The notes under the pieces are model-generated. The model saw only the letters and a program-made list of their open reading frames with translations, made no database searches and was not told the DNA's origin. The position numbers and the translations under genes were made by a program. DNA of 64,000 nucleotides from assembly GCA_018057925.1 (NCBI GenBank), contig JAGPCT010000013.1:1-64000 (forward strand), written 5' to 3'. The DNA comes from Saprospiraceae bacterium (GTDB lineage Bacteria; Bacteroidota; Bacteroidia; Chitinophagales; Saprospiraceae). Positions 38,600 to 46,681 of the stretch are shown here, piece by piece (position 1 is the stretch's first letter; every line of letters begins with the position of its first letter).

Positions 38600-38892
38600 T
38601 GTCCCAAATTCTGCATTAGCCAAATGAAGAATAGATTTACGACATTGGTCTATTAACACATAAATGCTGTGCACGAATTTTTGAATTAACAAATAGATAA
38701 CACTTTGAGATATTTTATTGAAATCGGCAACAATCTATTATTTTATCTATACATAGACAGATAGATATGTATGTCAACAAAAGGTATTTGTGAGCTATCA
38801 ACATTTTTATTACCTTAGCATGGATTTAGGTTTAACCCTCATAATCAGCACTCTTCGGTTTTTGTGAACCTAGATTGCTGAATTCGGGTATA
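38600..38892. repeat. Dispersed palindromic element split into two halves
   Basis: The left half is GTCCCAAATTCTGCATTAG with ATAGATTTACGAC; the right half (38828-38892) is TTTAACCCTCATAATCAGCA to GCTGAATTCGGGTAT. About 175 bases of unrelated DNA with a promoter candidate separate them. The right half folds as ACCC/GGGT, CAGCA/TGCTG, and GGTT/AACC. Confidence 0.6.
38788..38819 (+). promoter_or_regulatory. Promoter candidate for the 38.9-45 kb operon
   Basis: TTTG (38788-38791), 20 bases, then TACCTTAG (38812-38819), one base from TAnnTTTG. The predicted leader of about 115 bases contains the palindromic R module. Confidence 0.45.
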
Positions 38893-38939: not shown

Positions 38940-39632
38940 ATGAGTGATTTTTTTAAGAAAATGAAATCGGTTTTTGTCGTGACATCTGAAGAAGGTGAGT
39001 CCGAAAAGTTGAGTAATGAATCAGATTCAGGAAAGCAAAATGACAATCCTGAGCCGACAAATCCGCCAACAACAATTTCAACAAGTCAATATACCGGAGA
39101 AAAAGTCATCGGTAAGCAATCAGATCAGTTTTATGAAATATTGTTTGGCGCAATGGAACGAAATAATCAATCCGGCTTTGACTATATTGAATTTAAAAAA
39201 GCTTTGACAGGATTGGATAGCCTGCCTATGGATGAAAAAACAAAGTTCCTCAGTGCTTATGCCGGAGCTTCCGCCAGTGGTGCAACCGCTACGTCCTTAA
39301 TCAATAGCGCCTCCGTATATATCGAAGTACTTTCAACAGAATCGGATAAGTTTAAAACAGCTGTAGAAGATCAACGCAATAAACAAATTACCAATCGAGA
39401 AAATGAAATCAACCAGTTGAATAACCTTATTTCCGGTAAGAAAGCCCAGATGACAAAGCTTCAAGCCGAGATAGACGAACACAATAAGATGCTCTCTACC
39501 TTACAATCGGACATTGATACTTCCCGTCAAAAAATCGATTTAACTATAGCCGACTTTAATACGACTTATGATGGCTTGGTACAAAAGATCAGAAGCGATA
39601 TAGATAGAATTAAAACATATATAACGAATTAA
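38940..39632 (+). CDS. Coiled-coil protein of unknown function, first gene of the ABC operon
   Basis: 230 aa, no signal peptide or transmembrane segment, so probably cytosolic. Residues 1-55 are low-complexity, acidic and Ser/Pro/Thr-rich. Residues 60-125 form a globular helical part (DQFYEILFGAMERNN to AGASASGATATSL). From about 135 to 228 a long heptad-rich coiled coil runs to the end. I recognise no family. It lies 14 bases before a membrane-anchored coiled-coil gene. The pair may form a scaffold at the membrane for the transporter, which is inference from context. Confidence 0.75.
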   Translation: MSDFFKKMKSVFVVTSEEGESEKLSNESDSGKQNDNPEPTNPPTTISTSQYTGEKVIGKQSDQFYEILFGAMERNNQSGFDYIEFKKALTGLDSLPMDEKTKFLSAYAGASASGATATSLINSASVYIEVLSTESDKFKTAVEDQRNKQITNRENEINQLNNLISGKKAQMTKLQAEIDEHNKMLSTLQSDIDTSRQKIDLTIADFNTTYDGLVQKIRSDIDRIKTYITN

Positions 39633-39646
39633 AATATAAGCAATTG

Positions 39647-40672
39647 ATGGAACAACAGAATTTGACTTCCAAGACATTTTGGCAACGACCCGAAGGCAAA
39701 ACCGGAGCTATAATAGGGGCTGGGCTATTGATCGGTGGGGCATATTTATTTTATAAAATATTGCCGGCATTAATTGGGTTTGCTTCCAGTATGTTGAACT
39801 TAGCAATTATTCTTATTGTATTGGGAGCTTTGCTTTACATGGTGATGGATCCGAAGATGAGGAATCTGGTATGGTATATGTATAAAAGTGTGATGCGATG
39901 GATTACCGGGATGTTTGTACAGATAGATCCAATAGGCATCTTAAAGTCTTATGTTGAAGATTTGAAGAATAATTTGGTAAAGATGGATCAGCAGATTTCA
40001 AAGCTGCGGGGTCAGATGCATAAATTGAAGGAAATTATACTCAATAATAAAAAGCAAATAGAATCCAACCTAAGTCTTGCCAGTGAAGCTAAAGAGCGAA
40101 ACAAGGAATCTGTCATGATATTGAAGTCAAGGCAGGCAGGACGCCTTACCGATTCTAACATGAAGTTGGAAGACTTGTATAAGAAGATGGAAATCCTGTA
40201 TCGGGTATTATCCAAGATGTACGAAAATAGTGAGGTGATGAAGGAAGATATAGAGGATCAAATCAAAGTCAAAGAACAAGAAAGGTCAGCTATCCATGCG
40301 AGTCACAGCGCCATGAAGTCGGCGATGGCTATCATATCGGGTGACAAAGACCAGAGGGCTATGTTTGATCAGGCTTTGGAAGCCATTGCAGATGACGTAA
40401 GCGCCAAGATGGGCGAGATGGAACGATTTATGGAGGTGTCATCCAGCTTTATGGACAGTGTGGACTTACAGAATGGCGTTTTTGAAGAAGAGGGGATGAA
40501 GATGCTCGAAAAATGGGAAAAAGAAGGAGCTTCATTGCTCCTTGGAAATGAGAAATCATCCATCATCAGCAAGGCAAACAATGACGGTGAAGTCCTTGAT
40601 CTAAACGCTCCGGTGGCACGCCCCGTAAAAGAAGAAAGTTATCGGAATCAATATGATTCTTTTTTTGAATAA
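39647..40672 (+). CDS. Membrane-anchored coiled-coil protein (PspA-like shape)
   Basis: 341 aa from the ATG at 39647. Two hydrophobic segments near the N-terminus (about 20-38 and 44-65) are followed by a short basic/aromatic stretch. Alpha-helical coiled coil then covers about 95-230 (KLRGQMHKLKEIILNNKKQIE, then further heptads). The C-terminus is acidic and ends in YRNQYDSFFE. The shape recalls PspA/IM30-type coiled coils behind a membrane hairpin, but no PspA signature is seen. The gene sits between the soluble coiled-coil gene and the SBP-OmpA gene on one transcript. Confidence 0.75.
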   Translation: MEQQNLTSKTFWQRPEGKTGAIIGAGLLIGGAYLFYKILPALIGFASSMLNLAIILIVLGALLYMVMDPKMRNLVWYMYKSVMRWITGMFVQIDPIGILKSYVEDLKNNLVKMDQQISKLRGQMHKLKEIILNNKKQIESNLSLASEAKERNKESVMILKSRQAGRLTDSNMKLEDLYKKMEILYRVLSKMYENSEVMKEDIEDQIKVKEQERSAIHASHSAMKSAMAIISGDKDQRAMFDQALEAIADDVSAKMGEMERFMEVSSSFMDSVDLQNGVFEEEGMKMLEKWEKEGASLLLGNEKSSIISKANNDGEVLDLNAPVARPVKEESYRNQYDSFFE

Positions 40673-40703
40673 ATACATTATTATCATTTAAACAACAGTA
40701 AAA

Positions 40704-42257
40704 ATGGCAACACGACTAACTCCCTTCTCACGGTTACTTATTGTAGTCGGTATCCTTGCGGGTATCGTTTTTGGTGGTAAGTACCTGATTGAAAATAGTT
40801 CATTAGGCAATAAGCTAAAATCAGATGATCCCAAAGTGGAAAAGGTGGAACAAGGTAAAACTTTACCCATAGATGACGATGTATTGAATGTTCAGATATT
40901 TACTTTCGGAAACGCAGCGCCGGGCCTATACTTCAACAATGGTACCGAACCCAATGAAAATTCTCGATTTTACAAAGATTATGGGCTAAAGGTTAAGTTC
41001 CATGTGATTGATGATTTTGATGCTTCACGACAGGCATTCAAAGGAGACAAAGTCCAGCTGTTCAATAATGAGACAAGTGCCATGGCGACAGAGATGCAAG
41101 GTCTAGCATCTTTTGATCCTCAGGTGGTGATGCAGATCGACTGGTCGAGGGGTGCTGATGCCGTTGTTGCTAAGCGTGGCATAACAAGTATCAATGATCT
41201 CAAAGGTAAAAAAGTTGCCGTAGCGCCTTCGACTCCTTCACAGACACTGCTCTTGTTTATGCTCGAAGCAGCCAATCTAAAAACAACCGATATACAAATG
41301 GTCGAAGTGCCCACTACTGCCGATGCAGAGACAGCCTTTAAGTCAGGCAAGGTCGATGCTGCTGTAGTATGGGATGCACAGGCTTCATTGCGTGAAGTTC
41401 CAGGCTCTAAGGTATTGCAGTCCACTGTGACAGCATCCAATATCATAGCCGATGTATTTATGGGCAAGAAGGCATGGGTCAACGCCAATAAGGATAAATT
41501 ACGCAAGTTTTATGACGGCTGGATGAAGGCTGTAGCCGAGATTAATTCCGATCCTGCCGCCAAGGACAAAGCCGCCGCACTGATGTCTGCCAATCTTCAA
41601 TTGAGTAAAAACGATGCCTTGGGGATGATAGATGCCCTTAGACTGACTAATCACGGCGATAACATCAATTACTTTGGCCTCAACCCTGACTATAAAGGCA
41701 TAACAGGTGAAGCATTATACATTAAGATGGGAGATAAATTTCAAGCCTTGGGGTTTGCTCCTGCCAACCGCCCCAACTGGCGAGCCTTATCCAATTCTTA
41801 TGCCGTATCTAATTCAGAACTCAATAATACCGGTATCAATGCCGGCGAAGGCAATGCCAAATTCACACCGGCTACAGCTGCTCAAAAATCAGCGCCTGCA
41901 ATGGCTACCAAAACAATCAGTATAACCTTCCCAACCGGAAGTTATGCATTGGGAGAAAACGCTAAATCCCTCATCGATATTCAATTTGCCGATGTAGCCA
42001 AGGGGTTTGGTAATGCCAGAGTACGTATTGAAGGCAATACCGATAACGTGGGTAACAAGTTGAAGAATGTTGAACTGTCCAGAAAGAGAGCAGAAGCAGT
42101 GGCAAGTTATTTAGAAAAAACGTATAACATGGATTCCAACCGCTTCATCATCATCGGCAATGGACAAGATAAGCCTGTGCCGGGATGTGAAAGCAATAGT
42201 ACGCCGGAATGCAAAGCCAAAAACAGAAGAACAGAGTTTCAGCTAATAGGAGAATGA
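40704..42257 (+). CDS. ABC solute-binding protein fused to OmpA peptidoglycan-binding domain
   Basis: 517 aa. An N-terminal hydrophobic segment (about 8-28) without a clear cleavage or lipobox looks like a membrane anchor. Residues about 60-355 form a NMT1/SsuA-like type II solute-binding fold (the ITSINDLKGKKVAVAPSTPS core, then DAAVVWDAQAS). A Ser/Ala/Asn-rich linker (about 365-400) leads to an OmpA C-terminal domain (about 405-517). That domain has D447 (GNTDNVG) and R462 (LSRKRAEAV), spaced 15 residues apart as in diaminopimelate-binding OmpA domains. The protein would tether substrate capture to both inner membrane and cell wall. It is followed by the cognate permease, 60 bases on. Confidence 0.88.
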   Translation: MATRLTPFSRLLIVVGILAGIVFGGKYLIENSSLGNKLKSDDPKVEKVEQGKTLPIDDDVLNVQIFTFGNAAPGLYFNNGTEPNENSRFYKDYGLKVKFHVIDDFDASRQAFKGDKVQLFNNETSAMATEMQGLASFDPQVVMQIDWSRGADAVVAKRGITSINDLKGKKVAVAPSTPSQTLLLFMLEAANLKTTDIQMVEVPTTADAETAFKSGKVDAAVVWDAQASLREVPGSKVLQSTVTASNIIADVFMGKKAWVNANKDKLRKFYDGWMKAVAEINSDPAAKDKAAALMSANLQLSKNDALGMIDALRLTNHGDNINYFGLNPDYKGITGEALYIKMGDKFQALGFAPANRPNWRALSNSYAVSNSELNNTGINAGEGNAKFTPATAAQKSAPAMATKTISITFPTGSYALGENAKSLIDIQFADVAKGFGNARVRIEGNTDNVGNKLKNVELSRKRAEAVASYLEKTYNMDSNRFIIIGNGQDKPVPGCESNSTPECKAKNRRTEFQLIGE

Positions 42258-42317
42258 TGTCGATCTTCACATCTAAGGATACATTAGCTAATTAAAACTA
42301 TGAGTTGAACCAAAGCT

Positions 42318-43388
42318 ATGAATTTATTTGAACTAAGAGGTGTCTTGCCCACACGCACCAGAGTTGTTTTGGAAGTAGTCGGTATTTTGATACTATTGGG
42401 GCTATGGAGCTTGCTGACTGTAGGATCCAATCCAGTTGTGCCATCCGGAATATTGCCATCACCAGGGCGCGTTTTAGGCGCTATGGGTCAGGTCTTTGTC
42501 GAAAATGAGCTGATAGTCAACTTATGCCGGTCTATTGGTCTCAATGTGTGCGGTTACCTTGAAGCTATAATCATATCGATAATATTTGGCTTTGTCGTGG
42601 GCTTGCTGCCCTTATTCAATGGATTATTTGCCAAGCCAATAGATGCTTTTCGATTTGTGCCCTTGACGGGTGTTATCGGATTGTTTATCGTTTGGTTTGG
42701 ATTGGGCGTGACGATGAAGGTGCACTTTTTGGCCTTTGGAATCCTGATATATATGCTTCCCGTCATAGTTACCCGTATCAATGAGGTGGAAGATGTTTAT
42801 TTGAAGACCGCTTATACACTTGGAGCAAGTAAATGGCAGATTATTCGGACAGTGTATATTCCCCATGTCTTATCCAAATTTTCGGATGATATCAGGGTTT
42901 TGACAGCTATTTCGTGGACGTATATCATCATCATTGAAAGCATAGGTAATGAAGGTGGCTTGGGAGCTTTGATGTGGCGTACGGGCATAAGACAAGGCAA
43001 TATAGCCAAGTTATTTGCTATGCTATTTATCATCATTATCATAGGTTTTATTCAGGACAAATTGTTTACGATGATGGATAGAAAGTTGTATCCATATAAA
43101 TATTTGAAAGAGTCCTTGAAAACAGCCGGTGAATTGAAGAGTCAAACCTTATTTCAAAGGGTAAAAAGCAATATGTTGCCTATTCTCGGGTTGTTATCGG
43201 CCGCTGTCATGCTTGTATTGCTAATCAACGAATTTGTAGGTATTCTGGGTAAGAATGATATTCTTTCCTATGCCTTTGGAGCAACGTTCCCTGTAATTGC
43301 CATCTTAATGGGTGTTTTTTCTGTGTGGATAATTTTTGACTTTGTTCATCAGACTAAATCAAAGAAAATGACTCTTAAAAAAGCGTGA
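42318..43388 (+). CDS. ABC transporter permease, SsuC/TauC-like, with C-terminal extension
   Basis: 356 aa, about 90 more than typical SsuC. The core (about 15-270) has six hydrophobic helices and the EAA coupling loop LKTAYTLGASKWQIIRTVYIP, which contacts the ATPase. After the core, two additional hydrophobic helices (about 285-308 and 320-342) and a basic tail follow. The family moves sulfonates, nitrate, taurine or pyrimidines. The neighbouring SBP-OmpA fusion and ATPase complete the importer. The stop is 1 base from the next ATG. Confidence 0.9.
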   Translation: MNLFELRGVLPTRTRVVLEVVGILILLGLWSLLTVGSNPVVPSGILPSPGRVLGAMGQVFVENELIVNLCRSIGLNVCGYLEAIIISIIFGFVVGLLPLFNGLFAKPIDAFRFVPLTGVIGLFIVWFGLGVTMKVHFLAFGILIYMLPVIVTRINEVEDVYLKTAYTLGASKWQIIRTVYIPHVLSKFSDDIRVLTAISWTYIIIIESIGNEGGLGALMWRTGIRQGNIAKLFAMLFIIIIIGFIQDKLFTMMDRKLYPYKYLKESLKTAGELKSQTLFQRVKSNMLPILGLLSAAVMLVLLINEFVGILGKNDILSYAFGATFPVIAILMGVFSVWIIFDFVHQTKSKKMTLKKA

Positions 43389-43389
43389 A

Positions 43390-44082
43390 ATGGATAGTTT
43401 TGAATTAAAGCATTTCGAAAAAGAGCTCCTCGTCAAAATCGAACGAATACTGAATCATCGGGTGGTGAAAGCCATACATAATGCCGAATTGAGCCATCAA
43501 CAACTTCAGTTTTTTGCACTCCAATATCATATTTATTGCAGCTATTTTCCTCGTTTTCTGTGTGCATGTGCAGCCAATATCCCTGACGATATAACTCGTT
43601 TACCCATCATTGAGAATATTTGGGAAGAACACGGTTCCGGCAAGCTCTCAGGTTCACATCGAGTGCTGTACGAGCGCTTTGCCCATTCTCTCGGCATTAC
43701 CGACGAAGAACTTAAGCAGGTCAAGCCCATACCTTCGACCCTTATTAATGTGGAGTATTTGCTCAATATGTGTCAGGATGATAGTTTTATAAAAAGTCTT
43801 GGCGCATTGGGTCCGGGGACAGAGTTCTTTACATCCAAGGAATATGATTTGATATATCGAGGGCTTCAGAAAGTTGAAGGGCTGACAGAAGAGGATTTGG
43901 AGTTTTGGTCAGTACATATAACTTTGGATGATCACCATTATGACGATATGCTTATCTCTATACGCCCTTGGTTGAATACGGAAGAAAATATTCAACTGAT
44001 GAAAGAAGGCGCCGAACGAGCCATTGACTTAGAGATATTATTCTGGGATGGATTGGAAGATTTTTTATTCAATAAATATTAA
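43390..44082 (+). CDS. Haem-oxygenase-fold diiron enzyme (CADD/PqqC-like)
   Basis: 230 aa, cytosolic. The sequence follows the all-helical haem-oxygenase-like oxidase fold. Six expected metal ligands are present: E80 and H90 (NIWEEHGSG then SH), E145 (GTEFF), and H176, D180, H183 (HITLDDHH). The H-x3-D-x2-H spacing equals that of Chlamydia CADD. QLQFFALQYHIY and YFPRFLCA are like the family helix 2. TenA thiaminases share the fold but lack these ligands. It sits inside the transporter operon, one base after the permease, and probably acts on the imported compound. Its substrate is unknown. Confidence 0.8.
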   Translation: MDSFELKHFEKELLVKIERILNHRVVKAIHNAELSHQQLQFFALQYHIYCSYFPRFLCACAANIPDDITRLPIIENIWEEHGSGKLSGSHRVLYERFAHSLGITDEELKQVKPIPSTLINVEYLLNMCQDDSFIKSLGALGPGTEFFTSKEYDLIYRGLQKVEGLTEEDLEFWSVHITLDDHHYDDMLISIRPWLNTEENIQLMKEGAERAIDLEILFWDGLEDFLFNKY

Positions 44083-44156
44083 TAAAATATAAATATATAA
44101 AAAACGATATTATGAGGATGTTAGCCCGAAATAAAGTAGAAAGAGCAAAGTAAAAT

Positions 44157-44972
44157 ATGTCAACATATATTTATCCGACCTTTGATCAACCCAAGAAAAT
44201 CATTGACTTGAATGACATAAGCCAGTCGTACAACAATGGCAAGACCTATGTATTGAAGGATTTGAACTTTGCAGTGACAGAAAATCCGGGAAAAGGCAGG
44301 TTTATTGGGCTTTTGGGAGCATCGGGTTCCGGCAAGTCCACACTGTTGCGTTATATCGCCGGACTACAAAGCCCTACCTCCGGTAAAGTGCTTATCAATG
44401 GCAAGCCACCCGGCAATGATAATCGGGTGAGTGTGGTCTTTCAGGAATATAGTTCAATGCCTTGGTACACTGTATTAGAGAATGTTTCTTTGGCTCTTCT
44501 ATATAAAGGTATTGGCAAGAAAGAAAGGGAGGAGAAGGCTATGGAGATGATAAAATTGGTTGGATTAGAAGGGCATGAGCACAAATATGCGCAGATACCC
44601 GGATTGTCAGGTGGCCAGTTACAAAGGGTGGCGATAGCGCGAAGCTTGCTTTCCAATTCAAATATCCTGTTGATGGATGAGCCTTTTGGAGCATTGGACA
44701 TCAATACGAGACTGCAAATGCAGGATTTGCTCATTGAGATACAAGATAAGTTCAATATGTATGTTGTCTTTGTGACACACGATATTTCTGAGGCAGTATA
44801 TTTGTCAGATAGTATTTATATGTTGAAGAGAGCTCCTGCTTTGGTAGCGGAAGAAGTGGAAATAACTTTGCCGGAACATAGGACACGGGATTTGAAGCGA
44901 GATAGCAAGTTCATTGATTTGGTGTACCAGGTGGAAGATATTATGGTGAAGCTATCAGAAGAAGGAAAATAA
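44157..44972 (+). CDS. ABC transporter ATP-binding protein, SsuB/TauB-like
   Basis: 271 aa. Walker A is GASGSGKST (54-62), the Q-loop lies in VVFQEYSSMPW, the ABC signature is LSGGQLQRVAIAR, Walker B is ILLMDEP with D174-E175, and the switch histidine is in VTHDISEAVYLSD. The TauB/SsuB kind of C-terminus follows. It powers the permease at 42318. The gap of 74 bases after the diiron enzyme gene is the largest in the operon and contains no terminator. Confidence 0.95.
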   Translation: MSTYIYPTFDQPKKIIDLNDISQSYNNGKTYVLKDLNFAVTENPGKGRFIGLLGASGSGKSTLLRYIAGLQSPTSGKVLINGKPPGNDNRVSVVFQEYSSMPWYTVLENVSLALLYKGIGKKEREEKAMEMIKLVGLEGHEHKYAQIPGLSGGQLQRVAIARSLLSNSNILLMDEPFGALDINTRLQMQDLLIEIQDKFNMYVVFVTHDISEAVYLSDSIYMLKRAPALVAEEVEITLPEHRTRDLKRDSKFIDLVYQVEDIMVKLSEEGK

Positions 44973-45046: not shown

Positions 45047-46681
45047 ATGCGAATAATACTTTGGTTTTTGGTGTGTATGATGTTTTTGTCGTGTGGTGCG
45101 CCAAAGGTAGATTTATTGGTTTATAATGCTACAATATACACGGTAGATAGCACTTTTTCGATTCAAGAGGCTATGGCTGTTGATAAAGGAAAGATTATAG
45201 CCTTGGGTAAAAGTGTTGACCTGCAAAAACAATTTGACGCTAAAGACAAACTGGATGCACAAGGTAAGGTTATCTTGCCCGGATTGATTGATGCACATGC
45301 CCACTTTCTGGGATATGGTCAAAGCTTACAACGTGTCAACTTGGTAGGAACAAAGAGCTGGAGTGAAGTTGTCGATTGGACTAAAGAATTTGCTAAGAAT
45401 CATGATGATACTTGGATTTTGGGAAGGGGATGGGATCAGAACGATTGGCAAGACAAGGCTTTCCCCACCAATGAGTTGCTCAATAAGCATTTTCCGGACA
45501 AGCCGGTCTTCATAACACGTATTGATGGGCACGCCGCTATCGCTAATGATAAGGCGCTCCAATTAGCGGGGGTCAAGCCGGGTGGCCGATTGGAAGGTGG
45601 TGAAATAGTAACGAAGAATGGTAAATTAACCGGTCTTCTGATAGATAATGCTGTTGACCTCATCAACAAGGTCGTACCTTCAGAAACTCCACAACAAGTT
45701 TGTGAGTCATTACTGGATGCCCAGAAGATGTGCTTTGCTGTCGGACTTACGACGATTGATGATTGTGGGTTGGATCATGAGGTGGTGACCTTGATTGATT
45801 CATTGCAGCGGGGTGGAACCTTGAAGATGCGGTTATATGTGATGTTGAGTGATGCCCCGAAAAACTATGATTTTTTGTTTAAAAAGGGACAAATAAAGAC
45901 TGAAAGGCTGACAGTAAACGGATTTAAGGTTTATTCTGACGGTGCACTTGGTTCGAGGGGAGCATGTTTGATACATCCATATTCTGATCAAACAAATTGG
46001 AATGGCTTTCTATTGAGTTCAAAGGCTCATTTTGATTCGGTAGCCAATATTATTTACAAAAATAATTTTCAGATGTGCACCCACGCTATAGGAGATTCGA
46101 GCAATCGGGTTATTCTCAATATTTATGCCAAATATCTAAAGGGGAAGAACAACCGTAGATGGCGCATAGAGCATGCCCAAGTCGTCGATGGAGGCGATTT
46201 TCATTTGTTTGGAGACAATAGTGTTGTGCCATCTGTGCAGCCTACCCATGCGACATCGGATATGTATTGGGCAGGAGAACGATTGGGAAAGGCGAGGTTG
46301 AAAAATGCGTATGCATATAGGCAATTGATGCAGCAAAATGGCTGGTTGCCATTGGGTACTGATTTTCCGGTAGAGGATATCTCGCCCTTTAAAACGTTTT
46401 ATGCGGCGACGATCCGTGAAGATTCCAAGGGGTGGCCTGATGGCGGATTTCAGATTGAAAACGCTCTGAGTCGAGAAGATGCTTTGCGAGGCATGACCAT
46501 TTGGGCTGCACGTAGCAACTTTGAAGAGGACGAAAAAGGCAGTTTGGAGAAGGGTAAAGTCGCCGATTTTATTGTAATTGATCGAGATTTAATCAAAGTA
46601 GATAAGGGAGACATCCTAAGCACGAAGGTATTAAAAACCTTTGTCAATGGTGAAAAGGTTTATGATGCCGGAGTCAAGTGA
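45047..46681 (+). CDS. Amidohydrolase family lipoprotein, YtcJ-like
   Basis: 544 aa. A lipoprotein signal ends at C16 (MMFLSCG). The protein follows the amidohydrolase family 3 (YtcJ-like) pattern: LPGLIDAHAHFLGYG with metal-binding histidines, VYSDGALGSRGA, MCTHAIGDSSN, RIEHAQVVD, LPLGTDFPVEDISPF, and the FEEDEKGSLEKGKVADFIVID close. Such enzymes hydrolyse cyclic or linear amides, often N-substituted formamides. It lies 74 bases after the ATPase with no terminator between, so it may belong to the same transcript. A role in processing the imported compound is possible but unproved. Confidence 0.85.
   Translation: MRIILWFLVCMMFLSCGAPKVDLLVYNATIYTVDSTFSIQEAMAVDKGKIIALGKSVDLQKQFDAKDKLDAQGKVILPGLIDAHAHFLGYGQSLQRVNLVGTKSWSEVVDWTKEFAKNHDDTWILGRGWDQNDWQDKAFPTNELLNKHFPDKPVFITRIDGHAAIANDKALQLAGVKPGGRLEGGEIVTKNGKLTGLLIDNAVDLINKVVPSETPQQVCESLLDAQKMCFAVGLTTIDDCGLDHEVVTLIDSLQRGGTLKMRLYVMLSDAPKNYDFLFKKGQIKTERLTVNGFKVYSDGALGSRGACLIHPYSDQTNWNGFLLSSKAHFDSVANIIYKNNFQMCTHAIGDSSNRVILNIYAKYLKGKNNRRWRIEHAQVVDGGDFHLFGDNSVVPSVQPTHATSDMYWAGERLGKARLKNAYAYRQLMQQNGWLPLGTDFPVEDISPFKTFYAATIREDSKGWPDGGFQIENALSREDALRGMTIWAARSNFEEDEKGSLEKGKVADFIVIDRDLIKVDKGDILSTKVLKTFVNGEKVYDAGVK

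Follow-up and report, generated by a model that had tools for sequence, protein, structure and literature searches.

Why would a bacterium encode two coiled-coil proteins, a diiron enzyme and an importer anchored to the wall in a single run of genes? The question is raised by positions 38940-44972 of a 64,000-nt stretch of Saprospiraceae bacterium DNA (assembly GCA_018057925.1, contig JAGPCT010000013.1, positions 1 to 64,000; the whole stretch is hereafter the window), where six plus-strand genes encode the coiled-coil proteins cc1 and cc2, a solute-binding protein (SBP) fused to an OmpA domain, an ABC permease, a heme-oxygenase-like diiron oxidase/oxygenase (HDO) and an ABC ATPase (Table 1). 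An earlier note had read these genes from the DNA alone as one operon that may couple uptake of a small nitrogen, sulfur or aromatic compound to its oxidation. Comparison with related genomes revealed a conserved operon in which the presence of HDO follows the lineages of SBP and permease, and leads us to favour, with modest confidence, an ABC importer set on an ESCRT-III-like membrane scaffold and, optionally, equipped with an enzyme that oxidises its cargo.

The six open reading frames (ORFs) were confirmed, with intervening gaps of 14, 31, 60, 1 and 74 bases; the first of these is counted from ATG 39647, the probable start of cc2, and shortens to 11 with TTG 39644, the start chosen by the ORF tool. 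Their order is not due to chance, because it is repeated in 61 other loci, which bears out the earlier claim of one operon with a wall-anchored importer. These loci, from related genomes of the same family, make up with the window a set of 62, all picked by the presence of SBP, in which synteny counts are lower bounds, some contigs ending early. Within this set, cc2 was found in 61 loci and cc1, accompanied by cc2, in 59; the permease is present in 52 and the ATPase in 51, all on the same strand, and HDO lies between permease and ATPase in 15. The six genes are thus one conserved operon, strongly so for the cc1–cc2–SBP/OmpA–permease–ATPase block, HDO being optional. Mean column identity was 69% for cc2, 57% for SBP and 45% for cc1. 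In the family-wide sample of 199 genomes, 134 carry the SBP-OmpA protein, and a related-locus search of genome contigs returned one relative only (L015, from an uncultured Saprospiraceae metagenome-assembled genome). A permease ortholog, 49-57% identical, was present in all 11 SBP genomes searched, on the SBP contig and nearby in three of them and away from SBP in the other eight (G327, G226, G210, G250, G225, G257, G348 and G309); the 19 genomes without a full SBP yielded no ortholog, only two matches below 30% identity. Since the ortholog follows SBP even when unlinked, the two are kept together beyond gene order.

The presence of HDO tracks the lineages of SBP and permease and not those of the ATPase, cc2 or cc1, which is a new observation. 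It required two changes on the SBP tree and three on that of the permease, as against eight on those of the ATPase and cc2 and ten on that of cc1. Both HDO-less groups were clades with 100% support when the SBP domain was analysed alone, and the OmpA domain alone needed four changes. Of these groups, the larger (m2, a name taken from the SBP tree) formed a 99%-supported permease clade and was rejected on cc2 (p-AU 0.00016). A same-genus pair of loci, one with HDO (L060) and one without (L082), illustrates the divergence: their cc2 and ATPase are 83% and 81% identical, their SBP and permease 50% and 49%. Moreover, SBP position 66 is Phe in 16/16 HDO-associated proteins and Val in 44/44 others, and position 131 is Met in 16/16 of the former and mostly Pro or Val in the latter; both positions adjoin conserved motifs and would lie close to where the ligand cleft is expected. 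That HDO tracks the SBP type suggests that it acts on the imported cargo, rendering the enzyme–cargo coupling of the earlier note plausible. Most simply, an SBP–permease(–HDO) cassette would have been exchanged while the cc1-cc2/ATPase frame stayed stable; ancient paralogs and differential loss could yield the same pattern, leaving the link between SBP and HDO unaffected.

Pfam and NCBIfam searches with the window proteins agreed with the domain assignments made earlier (SBP-OmpA, permease with extra helices, CADD-like diiron enzyme and ATPase). The operon has the components of an NMT1/SsuA-type ABC importer, that is, SBP, a BPD_transp_1 permease and an ATPase with Walker A/B and LSGGQ motifs. 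The OmpA domain matches PF00691 (4e-16), and all 29 sequences share the Asp and Arg of its TD..G....N..LS..RA motif (D447 and R462), and the extra C-terminal hydrophobic segments of the permease map to residues 285-303 and 322-340. HDO is a PF14518/PF03070 enzyme whose nearest models are CADD and BesC, and its alignment to CADD, NePabS and BesC revealed metal ligands E80, H90, E145, H176, D180 and H183 invariant in 15/15. Among the 199 family genomes there were 18 strong HDO matches, 17 of them inside the operon and all 18 in SBP-bearing genomes, and a phylum-wide search uncovered elsewhere only distant CADD-like proteins. In one locus (L191, G295:C18) an operon-type HDO stands apart from its transporter operon, whose ATPase likewise does not adjoin, and two distant HDO paralogs scoring about 100 bits lie outside any transporter operon (L192 and L193, in G244:C329 and G340:C124).

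Neither cc1 nor cc2 matched a Pfam family above cut-off, and the cc2 profile retrieved nothing meaningful from the PDB sequences. The AlphaFold model of cc2 (mean pLDDT 69) displays two transmembrane helices, an amphipathic helix (70-92), a long hairpin (96-151/155-227) and, beyond it, two more helices (236-272 and 282-293). Foldseek ranked Vipp1/PspA structures first (E 0.04, probability 1.00), and a second aligner superposed cc2 95-228 on Vipp1 7o3w 24-157 (Z 9.6, 2.2 Å, 134 residues, constant offset 71) and aligned cc2 73-228 with Vipp1 7o3x 2-157; D95-P96 of cc2 coincides with D24-P25 of Vipp1. The model shows an alpha1-alpha3 hairpin after an amphipathic helix, in the Vipp1/PspA register. 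In many relatives, PF04012 matches begin at model position 22-23 and continue co-linearly as far as about 195, the best of them (9.8e-7, in a distant homolog) reaching 29 bits, below the gathering threshold of 33.9. A generic coiled coil was ruled out for cc2, as the PspA matches share one register. Model and sequence together point to cc2 as probably a distant PspA/ESCRT-III-like protein, which may polymerise on membranes. For cc1, the AF2 model (mean pLDDT 78) consists of a small helical domain and one long helix; it has no recognisable family, its hhalign match to PspA (29% over 48 columns) is low, and it may be a generic coil. Canonical PspA exceeded the Pfam cut-off in 1/41 relatives (L151 5410-6213, G217:C7), and same-family genomes seem mostly to be without it.

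The coiled-coil pair is not specific to the importer. A second cc1-cc2 pair lies on contig C101 of the same genome (L136, 6615-7175 and 7182-8210) with no adjoining transporter-operon genes, and a stand-alone pair also occurs in most relatives checked. Near the contig end, the L136 pair (G000:C101) adjoins two POT-type peptide transporters on the opposite strand. The same assembly holds a third pair (L177, G000:C113, 3344-4045 and 4057-4677), 81% identical to the window cc2 and cut short by the end of its contig; it is either genuine or lies on a stray contig, contamination of the assembly being given as 3.5%. In the cc2 tree, operon-type and stand-alone proteins largely separate, the former in a clade of 69 rows with 100/97 support, and they are distinct paralogs. 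The label 'sbp' on L140 in this tree is wrong, having been assigned from a distant OmpA match; it raises the change count, which was not used. Within the operon-type clade, seven rows lack an adjoining SBP, one of them (L175) on a long branch and of unsure placement. No permease ortholog was found in G037, G064, G158, G178 and G162, which have an operon-type cc2 and no SBP alongside, consistent with loss of the importer and retention of the pair. That most of the genomes checked have a stand-alone pair, and that some relatives hold both pairs and no transporter, is likewise described here for the first time. Outside the family, G072 and G166 have cc1-cc2-SBP/OmpA-permease with a very divergent SBP, and G072 the ATPase too. 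In G458, also outside the family (L172 6330-9315), cc1-cc2 is followed by a different, 355-aa membrane-anchored protein and then by a small transmembrane protein, with no transporter; the 355-aa protein has no Pfam match, and its 'DIGSGNTK' motif is reminiscent of ASKHA kinases. It seems that the pair serves as a platform to which several different periplasmic partners can be joined.

In the scaffolded importer that we favour, an N-terminal membrane helix and, at the opposite end, OmpA gripping peptidoglycan would fix the SBP domain in the periplasm, so that, tethered twice, it would be unable to diffuse from the permease. By analogy with its family, SBP would hand a small ligand to the permease, with the ATPase powering transport. 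As its predicted fold suggests, cc2 would cross the inner membrane twice and expose its PspA/Vipp1-like domain on the cytoplasmic face, where, with cc1, it probably builds a patch on the membrane that keeps the surroundings of the importer organised or protected. Scaffold and ATPase would stay, SBP and permease being swapped between lineages and one type bringing HDO, whose most likely role, given that linkage, is cytoplasmic oxidation of the compound taken up. We advance more tentatively a further-reaching version, in which the membrane-anchored ESCRT-III-like protein is a standing chassis for the importer and is kept along with the ATPase, SBP, permease and cargo-oxidising enzyme are swapped as a unit, and polymer assembly beneath the membrane and wall grip couple uptake to the state of the envelope.

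Several observations weigh against the scaffolded importer. Confidence in the cc2 model is moderate, and BAR domains match it at similar Z; fold alone is no proof, because long helical bundles also match these domains. The window cc2 has no PF04012 match at E<=1, its relatives remain below the curated cut-off, and hhalign of cc2 with a small PspA alignment, starting at the same DP motif, gave a probability of only 56%. Scaffold and importer are separable, as evidenced by the roughly eight loci with SBP and no adjoining permease and by relatives without the importer that keep two cc1-cc2 pairs. The disagreement between trees rests partly on counts, and the smaller HDO-less group (m1) was not rejected on cc2 (0.074) or the ATPase (0.25). 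A pair without any transporter, the resemblance of cc2 to PspA, a role that cc2 may take where canonical PspA is so scarce, and the other membrane-anchored protein as third gene in G458 would all suit an envelope-stress module, in which SBP and the ABC proteins mainly sense the membrane-to-wall gap or a periplasmic signal, cc1-cc2 shore up the membrane in a PSP-like manner and import is secondary. We judge this unlikely: the motifs of ATPase, permease and SBP are intact and the genes co-retained, and SBP and permease diversify jointly with the enzyme following, which fits cargo specificity better than sensing.

Slightly less probable still is an ordinary SsuABC-like importer with HDO as an accessory and cc1-cc2 merely co-transcribed. 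The existence of the pair on its own and the conflict of the cc trees with those of SBP and permease speak for it, but the pair precedes SBP in nearly all loci, even where permease and ATPase have moved away, sits in G072 and G166 of another family with the very divergent SBP-OmpA and its permease, and is represented in operon and stand-alone settings by distinct cc2 paralogs. A different doubt concerns the enzyme, which might be a p-aminobenzoate (pABA) synthase or a thiaminase-type salvage enzyme and not a cargo oxidase. ThiXYZ-TenA operons are a known pairing of importer and enzyme, and the nearest curated models include CADD (TIGR04305) and, more weakly, TenA (TIGR04306, 28.6 bits with a cut-off of 130). 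Yet the full set of HDO metal ligands is conserved, and the genome encodes two chorismate-binding enzymes, not told apart, with which canonical pABA synthesis is possible. Nor are the sacrificial residues of CADD, Tyr27 and Lys152 (PMC11965152), conserved: HDO carries neither Tyr nor Lys where these residues align, and we rejected a CADD-type self-sacrificing pABA synthase. Altogether, the pABA or thiaminase alternative appears very improbable.

As for the borders of the operon, its left neighbours are often divergently oriented and its right neighbours variable across the 62 loci; the unit is therefore delimited. The YtcJ-like amidohydrolase gene (45047-46681), proposed earlier as a possible extension, follows the operon in no other locus, same-genus L047 included, and was discarded as a seventh gene. 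The promoter candidate previously placed at 38788-38819 overlaps a Bacteroidota-type match, which is a consensus match only. Upstream of cc1, a divergent arginine-deiminase-like gene, a gene of thioesterase type and one for a YihY-like membrane protein are conserved in ~22-24/62 loci (among L048-L102) and are not present in the window.

Table 1. Genes of the operon and its candidate promoter, in window coordinates.
Feature	Position	Strand	Description
candidate promoter, Bacteroidota type	38787..38818	+	TTTG 38787-38790, 20 nt, TACCTTAG 38811-38818; consensus match only
cc1	38940..39632	+	predicted soluble; small helical domain (62-112), then one ~110-residue helix; putative cc2 partner
cc2	39644..40672	+	two transmembrane helices, amphipathic helix, PspA/Vipp1-like helical hairpin, later helices; probably membrane-anchored, ESCRT-III-like
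SBP-OmpA	40704..42257	+	inner-membrane-anchored; NMT1/SsuA-type, residues ~60-370; peptidoglycan-binding OmpA, ~405-515
permease	42318..43388	+	ABC permease, TauC/SaoP-like, BPD_transp_1; two added C-terminal hydrophobic helices
HDO	43390..44082	+	heme-oxygenase-like diiron oxidase/oxygenase, CADD/BesC-like; optional, cargo-linked gene
ATPase	44157..44972	+	ABC ATPase, TauB/SsuB type; Walker A/B, LSGGQ and H-loop intact

Membrane repair is what PspA/ESCRT-III proteins are known for; a genome survey has shown a dedicated form, anchored in the membrane and tied to an importer, which to our knowledge has never been tested. The family studied here offers a clean system for this: of its two paralogous pairs one is accompanied by the importer and the other is not, and there are natural losses and SBP/permease exchange within a genus. 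The tie of HDO to SBP type also opens a route to the HDO substrate, for which the SBP ligand is, because of that tie, the first candidate.

Compared with known systems, the window operon shares with SsuABC/TauABC an NMT1-type SBP, a TauC-like permease and a TauB-like ATPase; it differs in the anchored and OmpA-fused SBP, in the extra helices of the permease and in scores far below the equivalog cut-offs. Like PspA/Vipp1 (IM30), cc2 has an amphipathic helix followed by the same-register alpha1-alpha3 hairpin with its DP start motif, but two N-terminal transmembrane helices precede it and its sequence remains below the Pfam cut-off. HDO has the PF14518/PF03070 family assignment and the six metal ligands of CADD, NePabS and BesC, unlike which it has a longer E80–H90 loop and resides in a transporter operon; it also lacks the sacrificial residues of CADD. 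A literature search for SBP-OmpA/TelA operons found nothing. The earlier note regarded a cell-wall anchor and coiled-coil partners as unprecedented in importers, a view superseded by a computational survey of PSP systems in which PspA and transmembrane Snf7 homologs with AAA+ ATPases are described in operons with an ABC ATPase, a permease and PBPB-OmpA (e.g. OGG56892.1), components that 'may occur' together and which the authors proposed to tie solute transport to the remodelling of membranes (Ravi et al. 2024, PMC11237479). The main text of that survey mentions no HDO ('diiron' is absent) and does not report SBP/permease exchange. Here too, ABC ATPase, permease and SBP-OmpA stand beside a transmembrane PspA/Snf7-like gene; in contrast to the operons as described there, the window has no AAA+ gene in or beside the operon, cc1 is not recognisably PspA-like, one subset has added HDO, and genomes carry two paralogous cc1-cc2 pairs. 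Set against that description, the window operon is a variant of the PSP-linked ABC/PBPB-OmpA kind and not an exact member of it.

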